Below, piece by piece: positions 6,129-31,696 of a DNA stretch of 64,000 bases. The notes beneath the pieces were generated by a model. It saw nothing but the letters and a program-made list of their open reading frames with translations. It was not told where the DNA came from and ran no database searches. The first letter of the stretch is position 1; every line of letters begins with the position of its first letter. A program made the translations under genes and the position numbers. This DNA is from Actinacidiphila acididurans (GTDB taxonomy: Bacteria > Actinomycetota > Actinomycetes > Streptomycetales > Streptomycetaceae): assembly GCF_016918855.1 (NCBI RefSeq), contig NZ_JADKYB010000034.1, forward strand, positions 1 to 64,000. The letters run 5' to 3'.

Positions 6129-6149
6129 GGGGGCTCCGCTTCTGCGAAG

Positions 6150-6180
6150 GGGACGCGCGCGAACGGGACGCGCGCGCGAA
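6150..6180. repeat. Direct repeat between regulator and amine oxidase genes
   Basis: GGGACGCGCGCGAA occurs at 6150-6163 and, with two extra bases (GGGACGCGCGCGCGAA), at 6165-6180, in the roughly 100-bp gap between the GntR gene and the copper amine oxidase start. It could be a regulatory element or simple GC slippage; nothing else was seen in the gap. Confidence 0.4.
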
Positions 6181-6230
6181 GGGCTCGTCGGAACATGGGC
6201 GGCGGGACATCCGGGCCGCGGGATGTCAGG

Positions 6231-8140: not shown

Positions 8141-8262
8141 GCGATCCTCTTCCCTCGTTGCCTCGGTGGCGGGTCGCTGCCCGCCCGGCCTTCCTGTGAG
8201 CCTTGCTGAGCCACGTGGTCTGCGCAGGGTATGCCGCACAGCATTCCACATGTGCTCCAATA

Positions 8263-8284
8263 GCATACCACTACTAGACCACTC
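8263..8284. promoter_or_regulatory. Putative GntR operator upstream of unit B
   Basis: The sequence contains GCATACCACT at 8263-8272 and a second ACCACT at 8278-8283, 11 bp apart (about one helical turn). The segment around CTAGACCACT matches half of a DasR-type AGTGGTCTAGACCACT palindrome. The same 10-mer occurs at 18640 and, with one change, at 18796, always upstream of a gene of this regulon. Two GntR/UTRA regulators are encoded nearby. The match is seen directly; binding is inferred. Confidence 0.6.
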
Positions 8285-8299
8285 ATATGCCGAGCCCCT

Positions 8300-10059: not shown

Positions 10060-10102
10060 GTCTCCTCCTCCGTCCGGGCCCGCGGGTCCGGTGTTCGTCG
10101 GG

Positions 10103-10777: not shown

Positions 10778-10871
10778 GGCTCTCCTCACGGGAACGTGAC
10801 GGGCAAGTGGTGCGGGACGCGGTAAGGGTCGGCCGGCCCGGGACGGCCCGGGCGGGCTCCGGCGCCGCGGC

Positions 10872-12545: not shown

Positions 12546-12627
12546 GTGCGTCTGCTCCTTGGGAGTGGGGACAGCGGAATGGCGTAGGTGGGGAGGGGAG
12601 GGGCCGGCGACGGCCGCCCGTCGCTGG

Positions 12628-15806: not shown

Positions 15807-15808
15807 GA

Positions 15809-16783: not shown

Positions 16784-16786
16784 CGG

Positions 16787-17521
16787 TCAGTTCCCTTCGC
16801 GGTCCGGACGGGACGCCCAGCGAGCGGCGCGGCGTACCAGCCGGCGCACCGCGGGCTCGCCCCACACCCGCATGTCGTGGCCGAACTGGAGGTAGCAGAC
16901 CCGGCCCAGTCCGTACCGGCGGACGTGAACGAGCGGTTCGGCGCCGTCGCCGGTCTCGCGCCAGGCCAGCACCCGCACGTCGTCGGCGGTGCGCAGCCGG
17001 TAGTGCTCGTGGGTCACCTCGAAGGACGCGATGCCCGAGGTCAGTTCGTGGTCCGGGTCGAGCCGCACCTCGAACCGGCTCTCGTGCGGCCGCGGACCGT
17101 GCGAGAGGTAGTGGCCGCCGAGCAGCCCGGCCAGCAGCCGGTCACCTTCGTCCCACTGCTCCGGCGGGGAGGCCGGCACCGTCGTGGAATGCAGTGCGAC
17201 CAGGCCGCAGCCGCCCCGCACGGCCTGCGCGAGGGCCTGGCGCTGCCCGGTGGTGAACCGGCCCAGGGCGGTGTACAGAACCACCACGTCCGCCTCGTCC
17301 GCGCCGTCCAGCGGGGCGGTGCCGAGCCCGGTCCGGGTCGCGAAGCCTTCGTCGGTCAGCGCGTCCTGCAATGCGCCCGCCGCGGTGAACAGGTCCTCGT
17401 ACACATCGTCGCCGCTGATCAGGGCGAGTGCGGTGGGCCCGGCGCGCCGGGCCTCCCGGGCCCGGCGGGGCTGGATTGTCTGCATGCGGTGGCTCGATTC
17501 AGTAGGTGGAGCGCAATTCAC
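16787..17521 (-). CDS. ThuA-like protein (2)
   Basis: The product is 244 residues if read from GTG 17521, which has GGAG 8 nt upstream and overlaps the oxidoreductase gene by 23 bp. ATG 17485 (232 residues) is an alternative that better matches the length of the paralogue at 10103. Family features are ISGDDVYEDL, GGHYLSHGPRPHESR and GHDMRVWGEPAVRRLVRRAARWA. It is the second ThuA-like enzyme in the regulon and directly precedes the permease gene. Start choice is uncertain; family is fairly sure. Confidence 0.82.
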   Translation of the reverse strand: MNCAPPTESSHRMQTIQPRRAREARRAGPTALALISGDDVYEDLFTAAGALQDALTDEGFATRTGLGTAPLDGADEADVVVLYTALGRFTTGQRQALAQAVRGGCGLVALHSTTVPASPPEQWDEGDRLLAGLLGGHYLSHGPRPHESRFEVRLDPDHELTSGIASFEVTHEHYRLRTADDVRVLAWRETGDGAEPLVHVRRYGLGRVCYLQFGHDMRVWGEPAVRRLVRRAARWASRPDREGN

Positions 17522-18602
17522 CGGACGGGCTCCAGAAGCCCGCTGCGCGCCCGCTGGTCAGGGCGTTGTCCATCCGGTCCAGGGGCAGCGGCACCCGCCG
17601 CCGGGACCGGCTGCTCTCGTAGGTGGCGAAGATCAGCTCCGCGCCCCGCAGCCCTTGGTCGGCGTGCAGGGCGGGACGGCGGCCGGTGCGCAGCGACGCG
17701 GTCAGGTCGCGAAGGGCCTCGGCGGTGCCGGCGGTGATCGCCGGGTCCACGCCGCGGTCCCAGTGCGCGGGATCGGTGTCGAAGGGTGAGCGGTACTCCA
17801 GGTCGTCCTTGCCGAAGCGCCGCAGTACGGCTCCGGCGCCGCGGACGACGGCCCGGCCGCGAGTGCCCTGGACGATCAGCCCGAGGCCGTTCTCCGGGTT
17901 GAGCACGGGGGTGTGCGGTTCGCGGCCGGTCAGGACGGTGGCCTGCACGCCGTCAGGCCAGCCGATCCGGGTGAGCGAGGCGGTCTCGGTGAAGACGCCG
18001 TAGACGTAGCGGTTGACGGAGACGTCGATCTGGCCCATCACCCATGCCGGGGCGGCGTCCCCCCGGTGGAAGAGGATCAGGTCGACGATGTGGGTCCCCC
18101 AGTCGAAGAGGTTGGGGCAGTAGCCCTCGATCGTGACGACCTCGCCGATCTCGCCCTGCGCGATCCACTCCCGGGCCTGCCGTTGCACCGGATCGAAGCG
18201 GCGCTGGAGGTTGAAGGTCAGCACCACCCCGGCTGCCGCGGCGCCCGCGACCATCTGCCCGGCCTCGCCGTAGTTCAGCGCGATCGGCTTCTCGCAGTGC
18301 ACCGCGCGGGCGCCGGCCCCGACCGCCGCCGCGACCGCCTCGGCGTGCGAGTCCGGGGGCGTGCAGACGCTGACCAGGTCCGGCCGGGTGGCCGCGAGCA
18401 GTTCGCGGACATCGCGGTGGACCGCTGGAATACCCAGTTCGGTGGCCAGGGCGCGGGCCCGGTCCGCCGCCACGTCCGCCACGCCGGCCAGCCGCACCCC
18501 GGCGGTGGCCGCGTAGCCGAGTGCGTGCACCCTGCCCTGCGAGCCGGCCCCGATGACCACCGCCGAGAACTGCGGATCGGCGTGCCGTGCGGAGTGCTCC
18601 AT
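17499..18602 (-). CDS. Gfo/Idh/MocA-family oxidoreductase (3)
   Basis: The 367-residue protein has an N-terminal Rossmann motif VVIGAGSQGRVHA, catalytic CEKPIALN, and LFDWGTHIVDLILF, the Asp-x-x-x-His arrangement of the family. GGGGAGG precedes ATG 18602. It is the first gene of unit A and lies 38 bp from operator motif 18640-18649. It probably dehydrogenates the imported sugar or cyclitol, feeding the ThuA and TIM enzymes downstream; this is inference from gene order. Confidence 0.9.
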   Translation of the reverse strand: MEHSARHADPQFSAVVIGAGSQGRVHALGYAATAGVRLAGVADVAADRARALATELGIPAVHRDVRELLAATRPDLVSVCTPPDSHAEAVAAAVGAGARAVHCEKPIALNYGEAGQMVAGAAAAGVVLTFNLQRRFDPVQRQAREWIAQGEIGEVVTIEGYCPNLFDWGTHIVDLILFHRGDAAPAWVMGQIDVSVNRYVYGVFTETASLTRIGWPDGVQATVLTGREPHTPVLNPENGLGLIVQGTRGRAVVRGAGAVLRRFGKDDLEYRSPFDTDPAHWDRGVDPAITAGTAEALRDLTASLRTGRRPALHADQGLRGAELIFATYESSRSRRRVPLPLDRMDNALTSGRAAGFWSPSGELRSTY

Positions 18603-19845: not shown

Positions 19846-20598
19846 CGGCCGGACGAACGACGTACGCAGCCGGTACCGGTCGCCGGCGTACTGGATCGTG
19901 GAGATGAACAAGGGCTCCTGCTGTGCGTTCAGGGCGACTTGGCGCATGACGAGGACAGGGTCGCCGGGCGCCAGGTCCAGGTGCTCCGCGGCCCGCTCGT
20001 CCGCCTTGGTCGCCTCGATCGTGCTGTCGGCGCGCACCGGTTCCACGCCGGCGGCCGACAGGGTGGCGTACAGCGACCGTTCGCGGAAGTCCATCGTCTC
20101 GATCCCGGGGACGAGCGCCTGGCGGAGCAGGGTCAGGTCCAGCCCTATGGGTACGCGGTCCAGCAGCCGTACCCGCTCCAGGCGGAACAGCGGGGTGCCC
20201 GGGGCGATGGCCAGTTGTTCCGCCTCGTCGATGGTGGCCGGACTGGTGTCGGCCCGCAGTACCAGCGAGTGCGGGGTCAGGCCCATGCGGCTCGCCGTCT
20301 CGCTGAAGGACTCCAGGGTGCTGGGCCACTCCTTCTTGCGCGCGGTTCGGGTGACGTACCATCCGCGCCCGTGCGACGGGCTGAGCACGCCGGCCTCGAC
20401 CAGACTGCCCAGGGCCTTGCGCAGGGTCACCCGGCTGATCCCGAGCCGCTGGCACAGTTCGCGCTCGGGCGGCAGCCGGCTGCCGGGCGCGAGCACCCCG
20501 CTGTCGATCTCGCCCCGGATCACCTGAACCGCCTGGACCCACAAGGGCTCGGGATATCCGGGCAGTACGGCTCCGGAGACCTCGCGTGAGTCGTTCAT
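19843..20598 (-). CDS. GntR/HutC-family regulator with UTRA domain (2)
   Basis: The 251-residue protein has a winged HTH at about residues 15-85 (GYPEPLWVQ, RLPPERELCQRLGISRVTLR) followed by a UTRA domain (PGTPLFRLERVRLL to YAGDRYRLRTSFVRP). It is a close paralogue of the regulator at 6231 but lacks its 35-residue N-terminal extension. It is transcribed toward the dehydrogenase and has no copy of the ACCACT motif in its own upstream gap. Either regulator, or both in competition, may act at the shared operators. Confidence 0.9.
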   Translation of the reverse strand: MNDSREVSGAVLPGYPEPLWVQAVQVIRGEIDSGVLAPGSRLPPERELCQRLGISRVTLRKALGSLVEAGVLSPSHGRGWYVTRTARKKEWPSTLESFSETASRMGLTPHSLVLRADTSPATIDEAEQLAIAPGTPLFRLERVRLLDRVPIGLDLTLLRQALVPGIETMDFRERSLYATLSAAGVEPVRADSTIEATKADERAAEHLDLAPGDPVLVMRQVALNAQQEPLFISTIQYAGDRYRLRTSFVRP

Positions 20599-20714
20599 GC
20601 GGTCAAGCCCCTACGGTGATGTGGGCCCGGTGCGCCCGTGGACACGCGCGGCTCACCTTAGCTTCACCGGAGATCCGCCGCCACCGGCCGCACCGCGCGG
20701 GCGCCGACGGATCG

Positions 20715-21188
20715 TCAGGTCGCACTGCCGCCTTGTTCTTCGGACGGGGGCTGCTGGGCGCCGGCGTCCAGGACATCCATGATCGAAAGCAGTTGCTCGC
20801 GCAACTCGGGGGTGAGCCGGCCCGCCCGCATCGAGATGGAGCGCACCTGGCGATCCGCGAGCGCCGAAGTCCAGGCCGCGGTGTCGTCCGCCGGCTCCGG
20901 CGGTTCCGGGGGAGCCTCGTTGATCAGTGCGGCGACCGAGATCGGCAGTGTCATCGGCCTGGACCGGAAGTAGCCGACGATCGCCGCCAGCACGTTCAGT
21001 GTCGGGTTGGTCTGTGAGCCGTTGCGCAGAGCCGCCAGGTAGCTCCGGGAGATCGTCACATCGTGGCTGGGATCCGCCGAGATCGCCTGGGCGACCTCGA
21101 CCGTCGAGGGCTCCCGAAGGCGCCCGACGGCGTCGGCGGTCGCCGCGTCGGCGAACCAGGCGTTGAGGCGTTCCGCCAGGCTGGCCAT
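20715..21188 (-). CDS. XRE-family HTH regulator
   Basis: The 157-residue protein starts at ATG 21188 behind GGGGAGGGG. SLAERLNAWF is followed by an HTH region (EVAQAISAD, ISRSYLAALRNGSQTNP), the pattern of actinobacterial XRE regulators usually found with ImmA/IrrE proteins. The C-terminal 60 residues are acidic/Pro-rich then helical. It is divergent from the cyclase gene at 21409 and is a good candidate for controlling that cluster and/or the ImmA gene at 29014. Confidence 0.85.
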   Translation of the reverse strand: MASLAERLNAWFADAATADAVGRLREPSTVEVAQAISADPSHDVTISRSYLAALRNGSQTNPTLNVLAAIVGYFRSRPMTLPISVAALINEAPPEPPEPADDTAAWTSALADRQVRSISMRAGRLTPELREQLLSIMDVLDAGAQQPPSEEQGGSAT

Positions 21189-21214
21189 GTCACCCCTCCC
21201 CAGCACTTCACTGA

Positions 21215-21226
21215 CGACTCGAGTCG
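21215..21226. promoter_or_regulatory. Perfect 12-bp palindrome upstream of the XRE gene
   Basis: CGACTCGAGTCG lies 27 bp upstream of the XRE start codon in the divergent gap, a typical place for an autoregulatory operator. No second copy was noticed in the window. Confidence 0.4.
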
Positions 21227-21317
21227 GCGTTCCTCGGCGTTCCCCCGGTTCCGGCGGGCCGTTCCCGCGAGCACGCTCGCACCGGTGGTGTCCGATTTCA
21301 TATTAACACGGCTGCAA

Positions 21318-21345
21318 TCAACACGGGCATGCGTGCCTGTATATT
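21318..21345 (+). promoter_or_regulatory. Candidate promoter for the cyclitol cluster
   Basis: TCAACA (21318-21323) and TATATT (21340-21345) are spaced by 16 bp, an unusually A/T-rich patch here. AACACGG is directly repeated at 21305 and 21320, and GTAGA-GGT-TCTAC (21367-21379) is a small inverted repeat before the start codon. The assignment is by eye only. Confidence 0.35.
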
Positions 21346-21408
21346 GGCACTCACGCCACTCAGGCGGTAGAGGTTCTACTGAGCACGCCTTTGAGCATGG
21401 AGGGGATC

Positions 21409-22653
21409 ATGCGCAGCGGGGTCGGTTTCTCACAGGGCCTGCGCCGGAAGCTCGGCGACGGACCCGCGTGGACTGTTGAGGCTCTTCGTCAGGTGCGTTA
21501 TCAAGTCATCCAGTCCGACAACCTCTTCTCGCCGGACAACCGGCACTTGCTGGACTCGTCCGAGGACACCCCTCTGCGGTCCGGCGACCGGCGGCTGATC
21601 ATCATTGACAGCAACGTCGACAGCCACCACGGCGACCGGATACGCCACTACTTCGACCACCACGGCGTGGCTGTCACGATCGTTCCGTTGCGGGCCGACG
21701 AGCTGGTCAAGGAGTGGGACTCGGTCTCGCGCGTCGTCGACGCGATGAACGAGTTCACGCTCGACCGGCGCCGCGAGCCGGTGCTGGCCATCGGCGGCGG
21801 GGTGCTGACCGACATCGTCGGCTTCGCCGCCAGCCTCTACCGGCGCGGAACCCCGTACGTCCGCATCCCGACCACACTGGTCGGACTGGTCGACGCCGGG
21901 GTCGGCATCAAGACGGGGGTCAACTACGGCGCCGGCAAGAACCGCCTGGGCACGTACGCCCCGGCGACCGTGACGTTCCTGGACCGCTCGTTCCTGCGCA
22001 CACTGGATCTGCGCCACATCAGCAACGGCCTGGCCGAAATCCTCAAGATGGCCCTGATCCGTTCCGAGGACCTGTTCGCCCTGCTGGAGAGCCACGGCAC
22101 CGCCGTCCGCGCCGACCGGTTCCAGGGGAGCACCGGCGAACTGGCCGGCGCGGGGGACGCGATCATCAGCGAGGCCATCCACCTCATGCTGGAGGAACTG
22201 CACCCCAACCTGTGGGAGTCGGTGCTGGAGCGCTCCGTGGACTACGGCCACACGTTCAGCCCGACCATCGAGATGCACACACTGCCCGAGCTGCTGCACG
22301 GCGAGGCCGTGATGATCGACATGGCCGTGACCACGGCGCTGGCGACCCTGCGCGGCGACATGAGCGAGAAGCAGGCCGAGCGGGTCTACACCGTCGCGTC
22401 CACACTCGGTCTTCCGCTCTGGAACGACGCGCTGGCGGTCCCGTCACTGCTGAAGGACGCCCTCCAGGACACGGTGCGCCACCGCGACGGCCAGCAGCGG
22501 CTGCCGCTGCCGCTCGGTATCGGGCGGCACCACTTCGTCAACGACGTCACGGAAACCGAGTTGCGGGAGGCCGTCCGCCTGCTGCGCCGGCAGGTCCAGG
22601 ACCTGTTCCCGGCACACGCCGACCGGTTCGGGCCCCTGCAGGTGGACGCGTGA
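21409..22653 (+). CDS. 2-epi-5-epi-valiolone synthase-like sedoheptulose-7-phosphate cyclase
   Basis: The 414-residue member of the sugar phosphate cyclase superfamily has the NAD-binding GGGVLTDIVG at residues 129-138, RIPTTLVGLVDAG, KTGVNYGAGKNRLGTY, and zinc ligands Glu210 (GLAEILK), His281 and His297 (LLHGEAV). The segment GHTFSP at 280-285 is typical of the C7-cyclitol cyclases and replaces the GHTFGH of dehydroquinate synthases. It should turn sedoheptulose 7-phosphate into a C7 cyclitol, most likely 2-epi-5-epi-valiolone. ATG 21409 has GGAGGGG 3 nt upstream; TTG 21391 is a weaker alternative. Valiolone versus desmethyl-4-deoxygadusol synthase cannot be settled by eye, but the neighbours fit the former. 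Confidence 0.9.
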   Translation: MRSGVGFSQGLRRKLGDGPAWTVEALRQVRYQVIQSDNLFSPDNRHLLDSSEDTPLRSGDRRLIIIDSNVDSHHGDRIRHYFDHHGVAVTIVPLRADELVKEWDSVSRVVDAMNEFTLDRRREPVLAIGGGVLTDIVGFAASLYRRGTPYVRIPTTLVGLVDAGVGIKTGVNYGAGKNRLGTYAPATVTFLDRSFLRTLDLRHISNGLAEILKMALIRSEDLFALLESHGTAVRADRFQGSTGELAGAGDAIISEAIHLMLEELHPNLWESVLERSVDYGHTFSPTIEMHTLPELLHGEAVMIDMAVTTALATLRGDMSEKQAERVYTVASTLGLPLWNDALAVPSLLKDALQDTVRHRDGQQRLPLPLGIGRHHFVNDVTETELREAVRLLRRQVQDLFPAHADRFGPLQVDA

Positions 22654-23462
22654 GTGACGACAACCGCGGAGCCGTCGCCGTCGTCGTCGGCGGGTCGACC
22701 GGCATCGGGCGGGGAATCGCCGACGCCTGGGCGTCGCACGGCATCCGGACGCACGTCTTCAGCCGCAGCCGCCCCACCGGACCGGGCAGTGACCTGCTGA
22801 CCTGGCACGGGCTCGACTTCCGCGACCCGCAGCAGGCCAGGTCCGCCCTGACCGACCGTGTTCCGCAGCGCGTCGACCTGGTGTGCTTCTCCGCCGTCTA
22901 CTACACGTCCAGGCGCGAACCGTTCGTCGAGGTGAGCGAGACCGACTGGCAGGACCAGTTCACGATCAACGTGCATGCGCTGGCCTGGACGCTGAAGGCG
23001 ACCCTGCCCGCCCTGCGCGCGGCCGCGCCCGGCATGTTCCTGAACATCTCCTCGGAGGTCGTCTACAACGCCGGACCGCACCGGGCGGGCTACGCGGCCA
23101 CCAAGGCGGCGGCCGACTCGCTGATCCGGTCGGTCGCGCAGGAGACCGACCCCGCCGAGGTCTCCTTCGTCCAGGCGCTCCCGGCCGGGATGGTCGACAC
23201 CCCCGGGATACGGGCCCGGCGCCGCTCCGGCTTCGACTACGCCGGCTACATGGCCCCGTCGGACTTCGGGCCGCTGGCGCTCGAACTCGCCACGACCCGA
23301 GGCGGGCCCTATGCCGGGCAGGCGCTCGTCGTGCACGAGGACGCGACCTGGTCGTCCGTGGGCGACTCCGTTCCGATATCCCAATCGCGTGCGGCCCAAT
23401 CGCATGCAGCCCAATCGCGTGCGGCCGAAGGCTCCGCAGGAGGCGCCGTGGCCGTGCGCTGA
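22650..23462 (+). CDS. Short-chain dehydrogenase/reductase of the cyclitol cluster
   Basis: The 270-residue SDR starts at GTG 22650, overlapping the cyclase stop by 4 bp. The cofactor motif is GGSTGIG at residues 14-20 and the catalytic set is Ser134/135, Tyr148 and Lys152 (YAATK). A cyclitol oxidoreductase role comparable to AcbN of acarbose biosynthesis is inferred from context. The last 35 residues are a non-conserved extension containing three copies of a QSRAA-like pentapeptide, encoded by a 15-bp tandem repeat. Confidence 0.88.
   Translation: MSDDNRGAVAVVVGGSTGIGRGIADAWASHGIRTHVFSRSRPTGPGSDLLTWHGLDFRDPQQARSALTDRVPQRVDLVCFSAVYYTSRREPFVEVSETDWQDQFTINVHALAWTLKATLPALRAAAPGMFLNISSEVVYNAGPHRAGYAATKAAADSLIRSVAQETDPAEVSFVQALPAGMVDTPGIRARRRSGFDYAGYMAPSDFGPLALELATTRGGPYAGQALVVHEDATWSSVGDSVPISQSRAAQSHAAQSRAAEGSAGGAVAVR
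23381..23425 (+). repeat. 15-bp tandem repeat, three copies, inside SDR coding end
   Basis: CCAATCGCGTGCGGC occurs at 23381 and 23411 identically and at 23396 with two changes. The unit length keeps frame, adding five residues per copy to the SDR C-terminus, so the array could vary between strains without breaking the gene. Confidence 0.75.
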
Positions 23463-23474
23463 GACGCAACAGCG

Positions 23475-23509
23475 GGTGGGACGGCGCCGATGCCACGCGC
23501 CGTCCCACC
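23475..23509 (+). terminator. Strong hairpin between SDR and MFS genes
   Basis: A perfect 13-bp stem (arm GGTGGGACGGCGC, 23475-23487 with 23497-23509) and 9-nt loop sit 12 bp after the SDR stop and 38 bp before the exporter start. No T-run follows, which is usual for actinomycetes. It could terminate or attenuate transcription, setting cyclase/SDR expression above the rest of the cluster. Confidence 0.6.
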
Positions 23510-23547
23510 GACCGACATCACCGAGTTCAAGTCCAAGGAAAATTCCC

Positions 23548-24777
23548 ATGCCGCTAGTCCTGTTCGCACTCATGCTCGGCGTGTTCTGCGTGGGCACCGC
23601 AGAGATCGTGATCTCCGGGTTGCTGCCGCAAGTGGCCGGCGATCTGGCCGTGTCGGTCCCCACGGCGGGTCTGCTGGTGACCGGGTACGCCCTCGGGGTC
23701 ACCGTCGTCGGCCCGTTCGTCACGCTGCTCACCGGGCGCTGGCCGCGCAAGCGGCTGGTGCTGGTGCTGATGGGTGTGTTCGTGCTCGGCAACCTCGCGG
23801 CGGTGTTCGCCCCGGACTACGGCACCTTGATGGCCGCACGGGTGTTCACCTCGCTGAGCCACGGCACGTTCGTCGCGGTCGCCTTCAGCCTGGCCGCACA
23901 ACTGTCGGCCGCCGATCGGCAGGGCTCCGCGATGGCGAAGATCTCCTTGGGCTTCAACCTGGCCAACGCGCTGGGCGGTCCGCTGGGCACCCTCCTCGGC
24001 CAGCACCTGGGGTGGCGTTCGACCTTCGGGGCCATCGTCGCGATCGGGGTGGTCACCATCGGCTTGATCGCGGTGTTCGTGCCCTCGGCGCTGCCGCGCC
24101 CCGAGGGAGCGGCCGCCGGTGCGGTCCGCGGTGAGCTCGGAGTGCTGTCTCAGCGAAACCTGCAGCTCACGGTCGTGGCCACGGTGCTGGCGCAAGGTGC
24201 GGTCTTCACCGCGTCCACCTATGTCGTGCCGCTGCTGACGGACGTGAGCCGGTTCAGCACGGGTGCGGTCTCCGTGCTTCTCGTGGTCTACGGCGTCGGC
24301 GCGGTCATCGGCAACTTCGTCGGCGGCCGGCTCGCCGACGGGCACGTCGTGCGCGGCATCACCATCGTGCTGTCGGCCCTGGTCGTGGTGCTCGCCGTGT
24401 TCTGGGTGACCAGCACCGTGCCCGCGCTGTCCGTCATCACGCTCTTCGCCTTCGGAGCCGTCGGGTTCTCCATCATCCCCTCGCTGCAGGCCCGCATCCA
24501 GGCGGTGGCGCTGGCCGCACCGACCCTGGCGCTGTCGGTCAATGTGTCCGCTTTCAACCTGGGCAACGGTCTGGGCGCCTGGCTGGGCGGTGCGGTGATG
24601 GACCGCGGGTTCGGCGTGCGCGCGGTGACCCTGACGGGTTCCGCGGCGGCCGCGCTGAGCCTCGCCTTCATCGCTCTGTCTTCGCGCATGGACCGTCGCA
24701 GCACCGCCCCCGGCATCGCCGGCGACGAGACCGCGGCCCCCGCCGTGGGCAGTGAAGTGCCCTCCATGGAGCGGTAG
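23548..24777 (+). CDS. MFS exporter (DHA-type) of the cyclitol cluster
   Basis: The 409-residue integral membrane protein has about 12 hydrophobic segments. The first helix is LFALMLGVFCVGTAEIV, the loop after the second is TGRWPRKRLVL, a motif-A-like region of the drug:H+ antiporter class, and GGPLGTLLGQHLGWRSTF resembles AraJ/sugar-efflux members. AAGGAA precedes ATG 23548. It probably exports the pathway product or provides self-resistance. It is the first gene after the internal hairpin and 66 bp before the next dehydrogenase. Confidence 0.88.
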   Translation: MPLVLFALMLGVFCVGTAEIVISGLLPQVAGDLAVSVPTAGLLVTGYALGVTVVGPFVTLLTGRWPRKRLVLVLMGVFVLGNLAAVFAPDYGTLMAARVFTSLSHGTFVAVAFSLAAQLSAADRQGSAMAKISLGFNLANALGGPLGTLLGQHLGWRSTFGAIVAIGVVTIGLIAVFVPSALPRPEGAAAGAVRGELGVLSQRNLQLTVVATVLAQGAVFTASTYVVPLLTDVSRFSTGAVSVLLVVYGVGAVIGNFVGGRLADGHVVRGITIVLSALVVVLAVFWVTSTVPALSVITLFAFGAVGFSIIPSLQARIQAVALAAPTLALSVNVSAFNLGNGLGAWLGGAVMDRGFGVRAVTLTGSAAAALSLAFIALSSRMDRRSTAPGIAGDETAAPAVGSEVPSMER

Positions 24778-24843
24778 CCGAGGCGGCGGCACCGGTACGT
24801 GAACCCTGCACCACTTCGCCCGTGGCCCTGATCAGGAGTTGAC

Positions 24844-25932
24844 ATGCCAGAGTTCCCGTCCACGTACGAAGCGACCACCTTGGTCGGCGGCACCGTACGT
24901 CTTGGCGCGCACCCCTTCCCCGGGGACGCGCTCGGCGAGGACACCGTCGTCATCGAACCGGACTACATGGGGATCTGCCGGGCCGACATCAAGGAGATCG
25001 CCGGCTCCCGCGACATCATGGAGGACCGCGGACCGCTGTTCGGCCACGAGTTCATCGGTTCCGTCGTGTTCTCCGGAGCCCGGACGGGATTCCGGACGGG
25101 TGAGACGGTCACCCTCAATCCGAACATCACGCCGACGCGCACCACCGGTTTTGCCGACTACGTCTTCGTTCACGGAGCAAGGGAGCAACTGGACCAGGCG
25201 GTCGTCCGGGTGCCGGAGCCGGAGATCACGAAGAACGTCTGGATGCCCGAGCCGTTCGCATGCATAGTACATGCAGTCCGGAAGCTGGTCGGGCTCGCGA
25301 ATCTCCCCTCCCTTCAGGGGAAGAGGGTGGGAATCATCGGCGCCGGCTGCTCGGGCCTCCTGTTCGCCATGTACGCCCGGCACCTGGAGGCGTCGGTGTC
25401 GGTGTTCAACCGCGGCGCGATGCGGCGTGACTTCGCGCGGGAACGGCGGATCCTGGCGGAGGAGGAGATATTCCCGCTCGCCGAGGCGGAGTCCCACCGC
25501 AACGGCTTCGACATCGTCATCGTCGCGTCGACCATCGTCACGCCGGACCTCCTGCGAACCGCTGCCGCCATGGCTGCCGACGGAGCCGTGCTCTTCGTCT
25601 ACGGCGGCACACGCAAGGGCGATCGGTTCCCCGGCGGTGACGTCGACGTCGACACCCTGCGCAGGCGCGAGCGGATCGCACCCGCGGAGTACCTGGGGAA
25701 GCGCCTGGCAGTGTCAGGAGCCTACGGATGCCTCAAGGAGGACTACGAGGAAGCCTTCAGGCTGCACGCGGAGCATCCGCATGATTTCCCCCTCGAAAAG
25801 CTGACGTCGACGCAGATCGGCCTCGGCGAATTCCCGGAACTCGCCATGAGCATCGCCGCGGGAACGGCGGACTTTCCCGGAAAGGTCCTGATAAGGACCA
25901 CCGCCGCCGACCCGGATCGGGCACGAAAGTGA
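24844..25932 (+). CDS. MDR-family dehydrogenase lacking the structural-zinc lobe
   Basis: The 362-residue medium-chain dehydrogenase has catalytic-site residues Cys45 (GICRAD) and His68-Glu69 (FGHEF), Glu in MPEPFACIVHA, and a cofactor turn VGIIGAGCSGLL. The four-cysteine lobe of yeast-ADH-like enzymes is absent (NPNITPTRTTGF in its place), as in glucose-dehydrogenase-like relatives. AGGAG lies 5 nt before ATG 24844. It probably oxidises or reduces a cyclitol hydroxyl or ketone. I know of no exact counterpart in the acarbose set, so it may define the product. Confidence 0.83.
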   Translation: MPEFPSTYEATTLVGGTVRLGAHPFPGDALGEDTVVIEPDYMGICRADIKEIAGSRDIMEDRGPLFGHEFIGSVVFSGARTGFRTGETVTLNPNITPTRTTGFADYVFVHGAREQLDQAVVRVPEPEITKNVWMPEPFACIVHAVRKLVGLANLPSLQGKRVGIIGAGCSGLLFAMYARHLEASVSVFNRGAMRRDFARERRILAEEEIFPLAEAESHRNGFDIVIVASTIVTPDLLRTAAAMAADGAVLFVYGGTRKGDRFPGGDVDVDTLRRRERIAPAEYLGKRLAVSGAYGCLKEDYEEAFRLHAEHPHDFPLEKLTSTQIGLGEFPELAMSIAAGTADFPGKVLIRTTAADPDRARK

Positions 25933-25970
25933 TGAACACAAGCCGTGTCGACGCCGCAAGGAGGCGCACT

Positions 25971-27008
25971 ATGACGGCCGCATCACCCGCGTCGGCGGCA
26001 CGCCCCGCGGCGACACTTTCCGCCGATGTCGGCGGGACCTGGGTCCGGCTGCGGACCAGCGAGGGCACCGGGCCGGCCGTCCGCCTGCCGTCCCCGAGCC
26101 TGCTCAACCTGCCGGGCCGCTCCGTCGACGAACTCCGCCGCGACATGGTGGAACTGCTCTGCGGCGCCGCCCCGCCCGCCGCGTGCGCGGCGATCTCCTT
26201 CGGAGCGGCCATCGACCACCTCACCGGCACGGTCTACGGGTCCGCCCCGCTGTGGGGCGCGAGCGCCGAGCCGTACGACCTGGCCGCCGCGCTGCGGCAC
26301 AGACGGCCCGACGTGACGTGGATCCTGGTCAACGATGTCACCGCCGCGCTGGCCGACTTCGTCTCCGCACACGCCCGCGACGGCGTCCGCCGGGTCGGAT
26401 ATCTGACCGTGAGCAGTGGGATCGCCATGCGCACCGCCGACCTGACGCGCAGGCAGATCCCGGTCGACGAATGGGGTCTGCAGGGGGAGGTCGGTCACCT
26501 TCCGCTGATGACACGGACCGCGGAGCTGGCCGGTCTGACCTGCGAATGCGGGGAGCGGGATCACCTGGCCTCGGTCGCCTCCGGGCCCGGGATCGCGCGT
26601 GCCGCCGAGCGGCTCGGGATCACCGCCGGAATCACCGGCGGGGAGGAGGACCCGGAGGGGACCTCGGCTCTGATCCGCTGGCTCCCCGGGGCACTCGACG
26701 CCCGCGACCCGAGGGCGCAGCGGCTCCTGTACTGCTGCGTCGAGCCGATCGCCCACCTGATCCGTACCCTGTGGTGCGTCGATCCCCATCTCGACCTCTT
26801 GGGGCTCGGTGGTGGTGTCGTCACCGGTCTCGGCGACCACTACACGAACGAGCTCCGCCGCCAACTCGCCGCGGCCACCTCCTACGCCGATCGGGGCCGC
26901 TCGCAGCGGTGGCTCGACGATCGGCTGGTCTGCTGCGGTCCCGACGAGGTCGACGGGCTGCGCGGGGCCGAGCTGATCGGCCGGTGGGACCTGGGGATAG
27001 CCTCGTGA
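25971..27008 (+). CDS. ROK-type kinase, probable C7-cyclitol kinase
   Basis: The 345-residue protein of glucokinase/ROK fold has ATP-binding DVGGTW at residues 19-24, Asn121-Asp122 (VNDVTAAL) and EVGH at 173-176. The zinc motif is reduced to CECG at 191-194 without the later Cys pair of canonical ROK proteins. ATG 25971 is chosen for its AAGGAGG site; an in-frame GTG at 25929 overlapping the dehydrogenase stop is possible. AcbM of acarbose biosynthesis is a ROK-like 2-epi-5-epi-valiolone 7-kinase, and this gene sits in the equivalent setting. Substrate assignment is inference. Confidence 0.83.
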   Translation: MTAASPASAARPAATLSADVGGTWVRLRTSEGTGPAVRLPSPSLLNLPGRSVDELRRDMVELLCGAAPPAACAAISFGAAIDHLTGTVYGSAPLWGASAEPYDLAAALRHRRPDVTWILVNDVTAALADFVSAHARDGVRRVGYLTVSSGIAMRTADLTRRQIPVDEWGLQGEVGHLPLMTRTAELAGLTCECGERDHLASVASGPGIARAAERLGITAGITGGEEDPEGTSALIRWLPGALDARDPRAQRLLYCCVEPIAHLIRTLWCVDPHLDLLGLGGGVVTGLGDHYTNELRRQLAAATSYADRGRSQRWLDDRLVCCGPDEVDGLRGAELIGRWDLGIAS

Positions 27009-28093
27009 GCCCGGCCTCGCACCGTGCCCTGGTGCGGCGTCCCGCCGACGCCCGGGGCCGCACCCTGGTGGACGTCGTGCGGGTGCCGACGCCCCGGCTC
27101 GGGCCGGGCGATGTCCTGCTGGCGCCGCTGACCGCCGGTATCTGCGGCACGGACTGGCAGATCCTGCGGGGCCTTCGGGACGACGCCAGCCCCGTGCCGG
27201 GGCACGAAGGACTGGCACGGGTGGTCGACCCCGGCGACAGCGATCTGGCGGAGGGTTCGCTGGTCATGGTGAACCCCACGCACCCGGACGATCCGTCCTT
27301 CCTGCTCGGCCACAATCTGCCCGGTCTCTGGGCCGAGCGCACCCGCATCCCCGCCACGGCGGTACGCGCCGGCCTGGTGCTCCCGGTGCCGGAAGCCGCC
27401 GCCCGGCGGCCCTCGGTGGCGGCCTTGGCAGAACCGCTCGCTTCGGTGCTGTACGGCATGCGGATCGGGCTCGGCGTCGCCGAGCCGGCCTCACTGGTCG
27501 TCTGGGGCGACGGGACCGTCGGACGACTGGCCGCCGAGGTCTGGGCGCGCCACCTCCCCGGACTGCACCGCCTGGTCATCGGACACGGAGCCGGAGCGAT
27601 CGGCCCGGACGATCCCGGACTGGGCGATCGGCTGGCGGAACTGCCGGCACCGGTCGCCGCCGTGATCGCCACACCGCGCACGGGAACCAGCCAGGCATTG
27701 GCCACGGTGGACCGCCACGTGGCGGGTCCGCTGCTGGTCGATGTGCACGCCGGGCTCGCCTCGGGGGAGATCCCCCTGGGCTGCGGTGATGTCGACGTGG
27801 CGGCCGTCCGCGCGGCCAACTGCGGAGGGCTGCCCTGGCCACCGGACGTACGAACCCTTCCTCGTCGACAGGGGCCGCTGCTGCTGTACGGCCACCGCGG
27901 CGTGTCCGGTCGGCACCTGCTCGACGCGGTCGGGCTGCTGATCGAGGACGAGCGGGTGGGCGAAGGGCTGCTGACGCATCGGCTCGACCCACCGGCGGCG
28001 GCCGACCTCATCAACACGGTGCTGACCTCGGCGGGACGCCACGTGGACGGCCGCCGGGTGCTGAAGGCCGCGATCCGGTTCGGAGACGGGTGA
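27005..28093 (+). CDS. Zinc-type dehydrogenase, AcbL-like by context
   Basis: The 362-residue MDR protein starts at GTG 27005, overlapping the kinase stop (GTGA). Zinc-site residues are Cys47 (GICGTD) and His67-Glu68 (PGHEG), with Glu in ALAEPLASVLYG. The Rossmann turn is VVWGDGTVGRLAA, and the structural-zinc cysteines are missing. It is a second, divergent MDR enzyme in the cluster. Translational coupling to the kinase and epimerase indicates a shared phosphorylated-cyclitol pathway. Confidence 0.82.
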   Translation: MSPASHRALVRRPADARGRTLVDVVRVPTPRLGPGDVLLAPLTAGICGTDWQILRGLRDDASPVPGHEGLARVVDPGDSDLAEGSLVMVNPTHPDDPSFLLGHNLPGLWAERTRIPATAVRAGLVLPVPEAAARRPSVAALAEPLASVLYGMRIGLGVAEPASLVVWGDGTVGRLAAEVWARHLPGLHRLVIGHGAGAIGPDDPGLGDRLAELPAPVAAVIATPRTGTSQALATVDRHVAGPLLVDVHAGLASGEIPLGCGDVDVAAVRAANCGGLPWPPDVRTLPRRQGPLLLYGHRGVSGRHLLDAVGLLIEDERVGEGLLTHRLDPPAAADLINTVLTSAGRHVDGRRVLKAAIRFGDG

Positions 28094-28869
28094 TGGAAGC
28101 GATATCCGTCGCCGCCCCGCAGTGGCGCATCAGCACCTGTCGTACGGCCGCCGCCCGGGCCGCGCTCGCGGCGGGAGCCGATGTACTGCACCTGGACTTC
28201 GGCGGCGCCCACCGCGGCCGCATGCTCGACCATCCCGCCGAACTCGCCGCGGCCTGGGCCATCACCCAGGACCTGCCCGTCCCGGTGCTGGCGGTGAACC
28301 ACGTCAACGACATCGGGCTGGCTCTCGATTCCGGCCGGGCCAATCCGGCAGCCCTGGACGTCCTCTGGCGCGCCCTGGACTGCGCCCACCGACTGGGCGC
28401 GGAGGTTCTGCACGTTCCGGGATTCCGGCGAAGCCTTCCGAAGGACGATGCCGTCCGGAGCGGTACGGCCGAGGTCCTGCGCATGCTGGGAGACTGGGTC
28501 TCCCGCATGGGCATGGTGGTGGCCTACGAGTCGCCCCTGTCGGGGCGCGACGCCCTGACCGTCGCGGGGGATGTCGGCAATCCGGCGCTGCGGCTGGTGC
28601 TGGACACCGGGAACCTGCTGGACGCCGGGGAATCGCCCGAGGATTTCGCCGACCTCGTCCAAGCCGCGGGGCTGCTCCTTCCGTGCCTGCACATCAAGGA
28701 ACCGCAGGAGGCAACGGCCCTGCGGCGGGGCACCGTTCTGGACGATCTGCCGGCCCTGCTCCGCCGCACGCGGGCGTCCTCACTCCTCGTGGAGAACGAC
28801 TACCGGCAGCAGCCGGCCCTCCTGCGCGAGGACATCCGGCGGGCCCGCGCGGCGGCGGGCAGCCGGTGA
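28093..28869 (+). CDS. TIM-barrel isomerase/epimerase, AcbO-like by context
   Basis: The 258-residue xylose-isomerase-like TIM barrel has strand ends DVLHLDFGGAH, EVLHVPGF, MVVAYESP, LVLDTGNLLDAG, LHIKEP and LLVENDYR, providing the Glu/Asp/His metal ligands. ATG 28093 overlaps the previous stop by 1 nt (TGATG); an in-frame GTG at 28090 is equally possible. It may epimerise the cyclitol phosphate at C2, as AcbO does in acarbose biosynthesis. It is not a close relative of the two catabolic TIM enzymes at 3328 and 9268. Confidence 0.8.
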   Translation: MEAISVAAPQWRISTCRTAAARAALAAGADVLHLDFGGAHRGRMLDHPAELAAAWAITQDLPVPVLAVNHVNDIGLALDSGRANPAALDVLWRALDCAHRLGAEVLHVPGFRRSLPKDDAVRSGTAEVLRMLGDWVSRMGMVVAYESPLSGRDALTVAGDVGNPALRLVLDTGNLLDAGESPEDFADLVQAAGLLLPCLHIKEPQEATALRRGTVLDDLPALLRRTRASSLLVENDYRQQPALLREDIRRARAAAGSR

Positions 28870-28892
28870 GCGCCTGAAGGCTGTTGCCGACA

Positions 28893-28906
28893 GCCCGGCG
28901 CCGGGC
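28893..28906. terminator. GC-rich palindrome after the cyclitol cluster
   Basis: GCCCGGCGCCGGGC is a perfect 14-bp palindrome 24 bp after the last cluster gene. It has no loop bases of its own, so it is only a weak candidate for the cluster terminator. Confidence 0.3.
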
Positions 28907-28971
28907 GGTGAGGGTGTGTGTCCGCCGCGACCGGGAAACGCTGATCGGCTTATTGGGGGTCAGGTCCGCTG

Positions 28972-28998
28972 TGAGATGATTCCTGTTCTGTCATCTCA
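28972..28998. promoter_or_regulatory. Inverted-repeat operator upstream of the ImmA/IrrE-like gene
   Basis: TGAGATGA and TCATCTCA form perfect 8-bp arms around an 11-bp centre, extendable outward by two more pairs past one mismatch. The element ends 15 bp before GTG 29014, so a bound repressor would block expression. The XRE protein at 20715 is an obvious candidate, but no copy was noticed in its own upstream gap. Confidence 0.5.
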
Positions 28999-29013
28999 GA
29001 GAGGGGGCTGAAG

Positions 29014-29631
29014 GTGGATGCTGCGTCATATCAGGGAGGAAGCTGTGCGGTCGGCACCCGGAGCCACGGGAGCGAGGGGAAGGGTGCGGCGTTGCCGTCC
29101 GACGTGTCCGGCGGGCGCTTTCGGAATGCACTGAAACGCACCACCACAAGGGTGCGCGGTTCTCGTCTGCGTGATGCCCGGCTGCGTGCCCACAGTCGTC
29201 ATTTATTACGGCGACTCGAACCGCCTTTCCCTTTCAGTGTGACGACACTCTGCGAACAGCTCGGGGAACTGCGCGGCAGCCCGGTCCGGCTGCTTCCGTG
29301 GGAGCTGCCCGCCGACGGACCCTTCGGGATGCTGATCTCGCGTGACAACGAGGACGTCATCATCTATCAGGCGAACACGACCAAGGCCCACCAGGCCCAC
29401 ATCATCCTGCACGAGATCGGCCACCTGATCTCGTACGACCTCGCCGGCGAACGCCCGGCAGCGCTGTCCCTGCGGACCTGCTACTCCCCCGCCGAGGAGC
29501 GTGACGCCGAGGTGGTCGCCTCCACGATCATGCGCGTCGCGCTGACCGTGGGGCGCCGGGCCCAACGCGACGGCCTCGAGCAGCCCTGGCGTTCCTCGGT
29601 CTACAACAGCATTGTTTTCGATGGGGGATGA
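29014..29631 (+). CDS. ImmA/IrrE-like zinc metallopeptidase
   Basis: The 205-residue protein has the zinc-protease motif HEIGH at residues 133-137 and an EERDAEVVAS segment at 161-170 likely to give the third ligand. The N-terminal 60 residues are basic and unconserved. The GTG start follows GAGGGGG. ImmA/IrrE peptidases cleave XRE-type repressors. An XRE regulator lies at 20715, separated by the cyclitol cluster, and a MAB_1171c-like gene overlaps the 3' end. This trio is common in streptomycetes. Confidence 0.85.
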   Translation: MDAASYQGGSCAVGTRSHGSEGKGAALPSDVSGGRFRNALKRTTTRVRGSRLRDARLRAHSRHLLRRLEPPFPFSVTTLCEQLGELRGSPVRLLPWELPADGPFGMLISRDNEDVIIYQANTTKAHQAHIILHEIGHLISYDLAGERPAALSLRTCYSPAEERDAEVVASTIMRVALTVGRRAQRDGLEQPWRSSVYNSIVFDGG

Positions 29632-30787
29632 TATCACCGCGGTCACGTGGTTCGCCATTGCCGCCACCCTGCTCGGTGCCTCATGGACTGTTCCCGCACT
29701 GGTCCGCCGAGGCTTTCGGGATTCGATGCGCCTGCATTTGTTCGCCGCACTCTCCCTGATGGGAATCGGAAACTTCCTGAACCTCCCGCCGGTTTCCGGC
29801 GCCGTCGATGCACACGCCTTCATAGGGTGCGCCAAACTGGCGTACAACCTGAGCATCCTGGTGAGTCTGTGCCTGATGACCGCCTTCCTGCGCGAGCGTC
29901 CACTGGACTCCTGGTCGGCGCTGCGCGCCTGGGAGGCATGGCTGTGCGCCGTCTGTCTGGCGGGAATGTTCACCGCGACGGCGCTGATGCCGCCTCACCT
30001 GCGCAACAACACGCTCAATTCGGGACACCTGGGTGATCCGCGCGTCGTCGCGTTCTACAACATCGGCAACGTCTACCTGCTCGCCGGCTACTCCACCTGC
30101 ACCCTGCTGGCCTGGAGGATCGCGAGAAGAGGGCGCCCGCTGCTGCGCAGGGTGTCGCTGACCCCCCTGTCCGGCGGTCTGGCGGTTCTCGCGGCCAGCA
30201 GCGCCTTCCGATTCTTGTGGGTCGACGTTCCCGCGCTGCGGGCGGGGCAGTCCTTCACCTACAACCACGACTTCGTACTGGCGCTCTCCGGAACGGCCGC
30301 CGTGGCAATCGGGACGAGTCTGCCGTGCCTGGTCAGCCTGGCACAGGTCGCGTCGGAGAACCGGGACCACCGGGCCAGGTTCGAAGATCTGGGCGAGTTG
30401 TGGACACGCCTGGTGGCCGCCTATCCCGAACTCGTTCTCGACTGCCGCCCCGAAGGGCCCCGCCGGTTCCCCCCGACACTCAACCACGCTCCCGCCGTCT
30501 ACCGCCGCTACGTCGAATGCCGCGACGGACTGACCCGATTGAGCCCCTACCTGCGGCTCGCCTCCGCGCAATTGCCGGCCGAGGCGTCGCCGGGCGAGCC
30601 GCACACCGCCGCCCGGCTGATCGATCGCGCGCTGAGCCTGTACGGCGATCCATGTCTGCGCGGGGAGTCGTCGAAGGCACCGCCCTGCCCGGTACTCGTG
30701 GCCCGGGACGTCTCGGACTCCTACGACGACGATGTTCTCTTCCTGGCGGCGGTCTCCTCCGAACTGCAAGCGCTCCGGGCGACGTAG
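29621..30787 (+). CDS. MAB_1171c-like putative membrane transporter
   Basis: The 388-residue protein has about seven N-terminal hydrophobic segments in the first 230 residues (ITAVTWFAIAATLLGASW first), then a soluble C-terminal region with WTRLVAAYPEL and YRRYVECRDGL. This matches the actinobacterial MAB_1171c-like family found next to XRE and ImmA genes; function unproven. ATG 29621 lies inside the end of the peptidase gene and has no clear ribosome binding site, so translation is probably coupled. A TTG at 29612 is an alternative. Confidence 0.75.
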   Translation: MGDDITAVTWFAIAATLLGASWTVPALVRRGFRDSMRLHLFAALSLMGIGNFLNLPPVSGAVDAHAFIGCAKLAYNLSILVSLCLMTAFLRERPLDSWSALRAWEAWLCAVCLAGMFTATALMPPHLRNNTLNSGHLGDPRVVAFYNIGNVYLLAGYSTCTLLAWRIARRGRPLLRRVSLTPLSGGLAVLAASSAFRFLWVDVPALRAGQSFTYNHDFVLALSGTAAVAIGTSLPCLVSLAQVASENRDHRARFEDLGELWTRLVAAYPELVLDCRPEGPRRFPPTLNHAPAVYRRYVECRDGLTRLSPYLRLASAQLPAEASPGEPHTAARLIDRALSLYGDPCLRGESSKAPPCPVLVARDVSDSYDDDVLFLAAVSSELQALRAT

Positions 30788-30803
30788 ATTCCCGGGCGGA
30801 GGG

Positions 30804-30932
30804 TCAGCGGGGGACGAGGTGGAAGGAGTACGGCGCGGTGCGGCGCTGGTCGTTCCACACCTCGATCAGGTACCGCTTGCCCGGCTCCGTCTTGAGCGGA
30901 CCGACGTCCCAGCAGGTCCGGTACGGGGTCAT
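30804..30932 (-). CDS. Small 42-residue ORF coupled to the SRAP gene
   Basis: ATG 30932 overlaps the stop of the SRAP gene (TGATG). The product has regular sequence such as PGKRYLIEVWND and TAPYSFHLVP, resembling the end of a beta-sandwich domain, so it may be the surviving 3' end of a larger gene rather than a real small protein. I do not recognise a family. Confidence 0.35.
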   Translation of the reverse strand: MTPYRTCWDVGPLKTEPGKRYLIEVWNDQRRTAPYSFHLVPR

Positions 30933-31696
30933 CAGTTGGTGAAGTGGGGTGGGCCGGGCTCGTCGAGGTCGATCTCGGTGAGCAGGTCGGGGCTGTCGGT
31001 GCCGGGTTTGTTGACGGCGATGGAGACCGGGCGTGCGCCCAGGGGGCGGGCTGCCGGGTCGGCCAGCAGGGCACGGATTTCTTCGGGTTCCTGGAGGGAG
31101 GGGTCGAGCCAGGCGTCGATGTCGCGGGGTGCGATGGTCAGGGGCATGCGCGGGTGGACGCGGCCGGCGGCGTCGGTGGCCTCGGTGGTGATGATCGTGC
31201 ACGTGGTCCACGAGGCGCCCGGTTCGCCGTCGTCCCCCGCGGTGGGGTCGCGCCAGAACTCGTACAGCCCCGCGAACGCCATCACGCCCTGGTCGTCGGG
31301 ATGGATGAAGTAGGGCTGCTTGTAGGCCCTGCGGCCTTCCCGGGCCGGCATCGCCGCCCACTCGTAGAAGCCGTCGGCCGGCAGCAGGCACCGCCGCCGG
31401 GCGAACGCGCGCCGGTAGGCCGGCCTCTGGTCGACGGTCTCGGCCCGGGCGTTGATCATCCGCGAACCGACCGACAGGTCCTTCGCCCAGGAGGGCACCA
31501 GCCCCCAGCGGGCCGCCCGCAGATCGCGCCGCACCTCGCCGCTCGTCCGGTCCGCGCGCTCCATCACGGCCCACACGTCCTGCGTCGGCGCGACGTTCCA
31601 GCTCGGCGGCAGCACCTGCTCGGCCGGCGGCGGCCCGGCGCGGAACAGCGACGTCAGATCCTCGGGCCGGCGGGTGGACACGTAACGACCGCACAT
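30932..31696 (-). CDS. SRAP/YedK-type abasic-site processing protein
   Basis: The 254-residue member of the SOS-response-associated peptidase family (YedK/HMCES) forms a thiazolidine link with abasic sites in single-stranded DNA through Cys2. The start at ATG 31696 is fixed by MCGRYVS, which puts the catalytic Cys at position 2 after Met removal. Further signatures are NARAET, CLLPADGFYEW and HPRMPLTI. An upstream in-frame start would hide Cys2 and is rejected. Confidence 0.93.
   Translation of the reverse strand: MCGRYVSTRRPEDLTSLFRAGPPPAEQVLPPSWNVAPTQDVWAVMERADRTSGEVRRDLRAARWGLVPSWAKDLSVGSRMINARAETVDQRPAYRRAFARRRCLLPADGFYEWAAMPAREGRRAYKQPYFIHPDDQGVMAFAGLYEFWRDPTAGDDGEPGASWTTCTIITTEATDAAGRVHPRMPLTIAPRDIDAWLDPSLQEPEEIRALLADPAARPLGARPVSIAVNKPGTDSPDLLTEIDLDEPGPPHFTN

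Follow-up and report, generated by a model that had tools for sequence, protein, structure and literature searches.

Carbasugars are sugar mimics that stand behind drugs and crop protectants, and the best-studied pathways bury them in larger pseudo-oligosaccharides. The locus described here raises the question of whether such a pathway can end with the free compound. It comprises seven plus-strand genes at positions 21409–28869 of a 64,000-nucleotide stretch of Actinacidiphila acididurans (contig NZ_JADKYB010000034.1, positions 1–64,000; hereafter the window), which lies within a 71,686-base contig (C27) of a 9.69 Mb genome. The reading that we favour, with a probability of about 60%, is that the seven genes would form a complete operon for making and exporting an unconjugated C7 carbasugar. 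Two lineages reach the same seven-gene set, which argues for its completeness and for a product-defining role of its exporter and one of its two medium-chain dehydrogenases. The operon appears to belong to a known type of pathway; what seems to be new is the relation of that dehydrogenase to ValN, a copy of the gene set in another phylum and a mosaic history. If self-contained, such a seven-gene unit, present in more than one phylum, would provide a very short way to a free carbasugar and could easily be moved to a laboratory host. The swap of an exporter–enzyme pair between two cores singles out the genes that determine the product; recurrence and swap together make the formation of free and saturated carbasugars directly testable.

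The cyclase and the core route

Open reading frames, Pfam and NCBIfam place in order a cyclase (CYC, 21409–22653), a short-chain dehydrogenase/reductase (SDR, 22650–23462; PF00106), a major facilitator superfamily transporter predicted to be an AraJ/Cmx-like exporter (MFS, 23548–24777; PF07690), a medium-chain dehydrogenase/reductase (MDRa, 24844–25932), a ROK-family kinase (ROK, 25929–27008; PF00480), a second medium-chain enzyme (MDRb, 27005–28093; PF08240) and a TIM-type epimerase (TIM, 28090–28869; PF01261). The original prediction, made from the letters of the window alone, had named these families and their common direction, and both were confirmed. It had also counted four overlapping or nearly abutting junctions. 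Three are overlaps of 4 bp (CYC/SDR, with a GTG start at 22650; ROK/MDRb at 27005; MDRb/TIM at 28090), and the fourth depends on the start chosen for ROK: GTG 25929 gives a 4 bp overlap with MDRa, and ATG 25971, the likelier start with AGGAGG ahead of it, leaves 38 bp. SDR and MFS are separated by 85 bp, the largest gap in the run, and MFS and MDRa by 66 bp. A GGAGG...ATGC block kept in seven aligned sequences, including the window, supports ATG 21409 as the start of the cyclase. The arrangement is more than chance, because the five core genes (CYC, SDR, ROK, MDRb and TIM) recur in 13 loci of one type (type 1) and four of another (type 2a), and all seven families in Agrobacterium vitis; ROK is co-conserved with CYC, MDRb and TIM across the related loci.

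Among PDB sequences, CYC is best matched by ValA (PDB code 4p53; 389 bits), followed by a desmethyl-4-deoxygadusol synthase (DDGS; PDB code 5tpr; 252 bits) and by dehydroquinate synthase (DHQS) chains at no more than 130 bits. In a tree of 54 cyclases, built with a quick method, with several long branches flagged and without loci L047 and L050, CYC falls into a clade of 12 (support 99) inside the 2-epi-5-epi-valiolone synthase (EEVS) part, and the DDGS and DHQS rows lie outside the larger group that contains ValA. CYC carries Asp and His at ValA positions 281 and 360, which we take to be EEVS-marking positions; the PDB DDGS has Ala and Thr there, and the DHQS of the same genome, encoded by a separate gene on contig C20, has Asn and Ser. 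The idea of an active-site fingerprint is set out in PMC4426668. We assign CYC as an EEVS-type cyclase close to ValA by match, tree and residues, in keeping with the valiolone-synthase-like enzyme first proposed; the grouping with DHQS that had been put forward as the counter-check was not what the tree gave. An AcbO-like epimerase sits in the operon, and this argues for EEVS rather than 2-epi-valiolone synthase.

In the acarbose pathway, according to PMC9200736 and PMC7081202, AcbC is the cyclase, AcbM the kinase and AcbO the epimerase, AcbL converts 5-epi-valiolone 7-phosphate to valienone 7-phosphate and AcbN reduces the latter. CYC, ROK, TIM, MDRb and SDR supply one gene each of the AcbC, AcbM, AcbO, AcbL and AcbN families in one cluster, by family match and co-occurrence rather than by alignment with the Acb proteins, and at that level the early acarbose steps are mirrored, as had been suggested. 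Searches against PDB sequences gave nothing for ROK and TIM at an E value of 1e-5 and weak generic matches only for MDRa and MDRb. EEVS would cyclise sedoheptulose 7-phosphate, the predicted AcbM-type C7-cyclitol kinase ROK would add a phosphate at C7, the AcbO-type TIM would epimerise C2 of the 7-phosphate, the AcbL-type MDRb would take 5-epi-valiolone 7-phosphate to valienone 7-phosphate and the AcbN-type SDR would reduce C1, giving valienol 7-phosphate; up to this point the proposed route is that of acarbose. The Actinoplanes acarbose cluster thus has these five enzyme families and the presumed order of steps in common with the window, whereas the window operon has MDRa and its own MFS in addition. 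One related locus, L007, has the order ROK-MDRb-SDR-TIM-CYC, which equals what we take to be the acarbose order, acbM-L-N-O-C.

With the validamycin cluster the operon shares a ValA-close EEVS, a ROK-type kinase and a ValN-homologous MDRa, but it is without ValB, ValL or ValM, and its epimerase is a TIM protein, whereas ValD, going by the title of a paper, is a VOC protein. Of 54 genes called in the window, 40 proteins were scanned with Pfam and three with NCBIfam only (the other 11 genes encode 76–249 residues). No aminotransferase, nucleotidyltransferase, glycosyltransferase or pseudoglycoside synthase was found among these 43, in contrast to the nucleotidyltransferase, aminotransferase and (pseudo)glycosyltransferase of acarbose and other pseudo-oligosaccharide clusters; a few of the scanned proteins, such as that of 41423–44170, match no family. 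The expected lack of amine- and glycosyl-transfer genes was thereby borne out for the genes scanned, and the EEVS cyclase and acarbose-like steps without such genes would fit the free or phosphorylated C7 carbasugar first named as the likely product.

The ValN-related dehydrogenase and an apparently mosaic operon

While the EEVS cyclase, the acarbose-like steps, the lack of visible conjugating genes and the product class of the original prediction all stood, its view that the extra dehydrogenase has no counterpart did not: MDRa falls into one group with ValN and ValN-like proteins and has close relatives in other C7-cyclitol operons. Copies at least 65% identical to it are found in five of 394 genomes of the family, its own included, always within these cyclitol clusters, and among 394 genomes of the class only its own matched at 1e-30. 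The four other Streptomycetaceae copies are 65–72% identical to it and a copy in A. vitis 60%. Thirteen further genomes of the family have matches at 33–37%; in nine of the ten such neighbourhoods inspected (G063, G148 and G067 were left out) the gene directly follows those for an aminotransferase-like protein and a protein of 478–497 residues. In L105 the 497-residue protein matches VldE/ValL (1069 bits over 497 of 497 residues), a class-III aminotransferase follows and nearby genes resemble valA, valB, valC and valD; the validamycin genes valABCD and valKLMN are listed in PMC3424136. On the strength of this match, these neighbours and that gene list, L105 is identifiable as a validamycin cluster and its distant MDRa relative as ValN. 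MDRa, ValN and ValN-like proteins form a 17-row group (support 100/99) whose inner branching is not settled and which stands apart from MDRb under midpoint rooting; the MDRa copies are a separate clade of six (100/100), 32–36% identical to ValN.

Relatives of the operon were collected by searching with the cyclase in named genomes (five loci), in the class (20 of 394 genomes matched) and in the genus (two of 35), and with MDRb in the family (19 of 394), each of the last three counts including the genome itself; 20 neighbourhoods were fetched and genes were grouped over 26 sequences, including the window. The 13 type-1 loci (L003–L005, L060–L067, L075 and L076; L003 and L061 are one cluster) share HTH (a small protein discussed below), CYC, SDR, a HAD gene, ROK, MDRb, TIM and acyltransferase-3-like genes, and 11 of them have a different dehydrogenase of the MDR type (f8); the HAD, f8 and acyltransferase-3 families were each confirmed with Pfam on one member. 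Compared with 12 type-1 loci (L061 was left out here and, together with L076, from the core tree), the window core is 63–77% (CYC), 57–74% (SDR), 52–69% (ROK), 45–72% (MDRb) and 36–64% (TIM) identical, the low ends being those of L075 and L076. In the other ten, SDR reaches 71–74%, MDRb 63–72% and TIM 60–64%, against 57, 45 and 36–39% in the remaining two, and the core enzymes of these ten are 60–77% identical to those of the window. The HTH, ImmA/IrrE-like and MAB_1171c families are common to both sides; the HAD, f8 and acyltransferase-3-like genes belong to the type-1 clusters, which are without MDRa and whose products are likely to be acylated. The HAD gene and acyltransferase-3 expected of a type-1 acyl-cyclitol cluster were not found in the window, tblastn at 1e-4 giving no HAD gene in its 12–40 kb part and Pfam no acyltransferase-3 among the scanned genes.

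The type-2a loci (L068, L071, L073 and L074) have the order CYC-ROK-MDRb-SDR-TIM-MDRa, with a MarR-like gene and MFS across the cyclase, and hold all seven window gene families. A protein search of plasmid records located the 60% MDRa match on plasmid pRvVAR031a of A. vitis VAR03-1, a bacterium associated with grapevine. Here a compact, co-directional run of CYC, ROK, MDR, SDR, TIM, MFS and MDR follows a divergent LysR gene, and the stretch between transposase genes contains the seven families and nothing else; the gene table of this plasmid is incomplete, and open reading frames were listed additionally and named by eye. IS21-type frames lie upstream of the operon, transposase-like fragments start right after MDRa, and resolvase-like and further transposase frames are found beyond the Lrp and argininosuccinate synthase genes. 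The transposase/resolvase-like frames on both sides (3936–6340 and 15086–19457 of L114) give the surroundings the look of a mobile island. Both A. vitis and type 2a differ from the window in their core enzymes (33–54% identical), gene order and regulators (LysR or MarR-like). The adjacency and order of MFS and MDRa are the same in A. vitis and the window, whereas in type 2a the two genes are not adjacent and extra genes are near. The antagonism of VAR03-1 is ascribed mostly to a tailocin, and the words 'cyclase' and 'secondary metabolite' and the plasmid name do not occur in the portion of PMC10811719 available to us. Among the literature matches listed (titles and beginnings of abstracts, most subscription journals lying outside), there was no account of the seven-gene set or of the A. 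vitis operon.

Between the window and A. vitis, CYC (47%), SDR (50%), ROK (39%), MDRb (41%) and TIM (33%) are far less alike than MFS (73.5%) and MDRa (60%). In a quick tree the window and A. vitis MFS are sisters (support 99), the four type-2a copies coming next (97); the place of the window copy inside the MDRa clade is not settled. In a tree of the concatenated core, the window clusters with type-1 loci (a group of 11, 100/100) and A. vitis joins type 2a and L072 (100/100); a constraint that unites the window, A. vitis and the four type-2a rows is rejected (p-AU 0.000258, for a group named after the identities had been seen). MFS and MDRa have not shared the history of the core. Their relationships do not agree with simple vertical inheritance of the entire operon alongside the type-1 clusters, and those of the core do not agree with transfer of the entire operon from A. 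vitis or type 2a, as the same test indicates. The MFS–MDRa pair has apparently joined two different cores. The interval between SDR and ROK holds the HAD gene in type-1 loci and MFS and MDRa in the window; the pair thus appears to have taken the place of the phosphatase-like gene within a type-1 backbone, which re-creates the set of genes found in the other lineage. Neither this separate history nor the copy in another phylum had been noticed in the original prediction.

The predicted product and competing explanations

The step that would distinguish the operon is that of MDRa, a possible enone reductase, which would set the redox state of the ring. By analogy with ValN it may saturate the ring double bond of valienone 7-phosphate, which together with the SDR would lead to a saturated compound of the carba-glucose 6-phosphate type; we regard this as possible, at somewhat less than even odds. 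A general phosphatase would then take off the phosphate and the dedicated MFS pump would export the free carbasugar. In Actinoplanes, free valienol is formed from valienol 7-phosphate by several phosphatases, as stated in PMC9200736 and PMC7081202, and an operon without a phosphatase can therefore still yield a free cyclitol. Saturated free carbasugars do exist as products, given the natural 5a-carba-galactopyranose from Streptomyces and the carbasugars from S. lincolnensis mentioned in PMC8827411 and PMC10717218. More tentatively, the operon could be the first set of genes that can be recognised as making a saturated free carbahexose of the 5a-carba-glucose type, its exporter and ValN-type enone reductase having been inserted as a pair into two diverged EEVS cores and having travelled between Actinomycetota and Agrobacterium. 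A 'cyclitol antibiotic' isolated from Streptomyces in 1973 was perhaps such a carbahexose, and to our knowledge no genes have been assigned to it.

Several observations weigh against a free, saturated product. MDRa is distant from ValN, and its C45, H68-E69, E136 and H143 are invariant over eight aligned rows; the first four of these residues are at what we take to be the usual zinc-site positions of alcohol and polyol dehydrogenases, would also fit the oxidation of an alcohol and do not decide the matter. The passages at hand tie valM and valN to validamine 7-phosphate (PMC12041759) and describe ValN as a dehydrogenase next to ValM (PMC8382821), without linking it to enone reduction. In type 2a, besides the separation of MFS from MDRa, an acyltransferase-3 gene and a second MFS adjoin the L071 operon, transposase-like and FAD-enzyme genes follow MFS in L068, L073 and L074, and behind these in L068, about 2.6 kb beyond MFS, lies a UDPGT/EryCIII-like glycosyltransferase gene; the compounds made by type 2a may carry decorations, and a further FAD-dependent step is possible there. 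Upstream of the A. vitis operon, about 5 kb away and past the IS21 genes, are two genes with acyltransferase domains. No glycosyltransferase, acyltransferase-3 or FAD-enzyme genes were seen close by in the window and A. vitis.

The zinc-site residues lend themselves to an alternative, which we consider unlikely, in which MDRa is an alcohol dehydrogenase that oxidises a ring hydroxyl of valienol or its 7-phosphate to a gabosine-type keto-carbasugar exported by the MFS. Gabosines are natural carbasugars and are known from Streptomyces. The f8 dehydrogenase stands beside acyltransferase genes in 11 of the 13 type-1 relatives, so that late oxidation may be common in this group of pathways. Against this, the distant relatives of MDRa stand in a valL-M-N order in the nine neighbourhoods noted above, and ValN serves validamine, a saturated unit. 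Loss of ValN reportedly leaves the ring unsaturated: Xu et al. in 2009 are said to have described ValN as an enone reductase and valN mutants as making unsaturated 1,1'-bis-valienamine.

It is less probable still that the operon only supplies a building block and that conjugating genes elsewhere in the genome complete an amino-, acyl- or glyco-cyclitol. Genes of this kind are indeed present in sister lineages of the core: L007 has a TreT-type glycosyltransferase, L070 a nucleotidyltransferase with a GT5-like protein, and L069 a nucleotidyltransferase with a GT20 protein. Two of the four type-2a loci likewise have a glycosyl- or acyltransferase nearby. Searching the genome with the validamycin versions of the conjugating genes gave distant homologues only: 14 ValM matches at 30–40%, one ValL match at 33% and a best ValB match at 34%. 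The ValM and ValL matches leave room for a split pathway, which counts against a self-contained operon, but the ValL and ValB matches are no closer than 33–34%, and the missing genes that had been suggested as a check did not come to light in closer form. The A. vitis stretch between transposase genes has no conjugating gene, none was noticed, going by N-termini alone, in the 20 kb retrieved for L073 and L074, and the operon itself encodes an exporter.

Retention of the phosphorylated product in the cell, where a carba-glucose 6-phosphate analogue would serve as a signal or antimetabolite and the MFS would give protection, appears very improbable. The HAD gene, present in 16 of 25 related loci (of which L003 and L061 are one cluster), was not found by tblastn in any of the six MDRa clusters, and MFS is similar to a sugar exporter but also to drug efflux pumps, its match to the NCBIfam Cmx/CmrA family (300 bits) falling under the cut-off of 400; however, the linked sugar-efflux-like pump suggests export, and the 7-phosphate is removed by several phosphatases in Actinoplanes (PMC9200736). 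Finally, that CYC is a DHQS or DDGS and the genes no cyclitol pathway is practically out of the question: its NCBIfam matches include aroB models, but these fall under the model cut-offs, and tree position and active-site residues speak against both identities.

Flanking genes and related clusters

Upstream of the operon, on the minus strand, lies a gene for a small protein (HTH, 20715–21206) that is a probable regulator by name and role, although it matches no Pfam or NCBIfam family. All 13 type-1 loci have a gene of its family, immediately next to the cyclase in every case but L067 (12 loci), with 67–76% identity in the five measured. The divergent intergenic region (21207–21408) contains one promoter-like site (21318–21345, TATATT), against 0.5 expected from shuffles, and a TATAnT block upstream of CYC is conserved across seven aligned sequences, the window included. 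One terminator-like site was detected, fewer than the chance number, and an Rfam scan of 20000–31000 gave no match. Downstream on the plus strand follow a gene for an ImmA/IrrE-like protein (29014–29631), recognised by a HEIGH motif and without a Pfam or NCBIfam match, and one for a MAB_1171c-family membrane protein (29612–30787; NF042915, 225 bits, cut-off 100). The former family was grouped in 11 of the 13 type-1 loci, with a tblastn match also in L003, and the latter is near the cluster in all 13. These three genes travel with type-1 cyclitol clusters in varying positions, which suggests an uncharacterised regulatory set. Farther away, the minus strand at 292–18602 carries SIS, Gfo/Idh/MocA, TIM, epimerase, copper amine oxidase, ThuA and oligopeptide-type ABC transporter genes, perhaps for amino-sugar catabolism; no link between this block and the cyclitol operon was seen.

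L072 (G318) and L109 (G385) combine core genes with a HAD gene and a beta-lactamase-family protein that is maybe an acyltransferase; their core is sister to type 2a and A. vitis, and they are without MDRa. In L107 (G178, 8707–12942) and L110 (G042, 9295–12592), ROK and an EEVS-like cyclase are apparently one fusion of 716–718 residues with an MDRb-like gene adjoining, and L107 also has a ValN-like gene beside genes resembling peptide-synthetase parts. An EEVS cluster of Rhodococcus erythropolis NBRC 15567 (L006, 10001–20576) includes a ketosynthase-III-like protein (Pfam), an SDR, MDRs and a VOC-like protein, and L079 is similar; these sets possibly stand for acylated cyclitols outside Streptomycetaceae. 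Plasmid pC6.5b of Rhizobium rhizogenes (L115, 11872–15389) carries EEVS, ROK and TIM genes with glycosyltransferase and transposase genes near, and another plasmid record, L117, proved on inspection to be a different cluster. A C7-aminocyclitol-like cluster on a Streptomyces clavuligerus plasmid (L116, 10942–18924) has ROK, EEVS, MDRb-like, ValN-like, DegT aminotransferase, HAD and GNAT genes; 16 S. clavuligerus plasmid records were among the cyclase matches.

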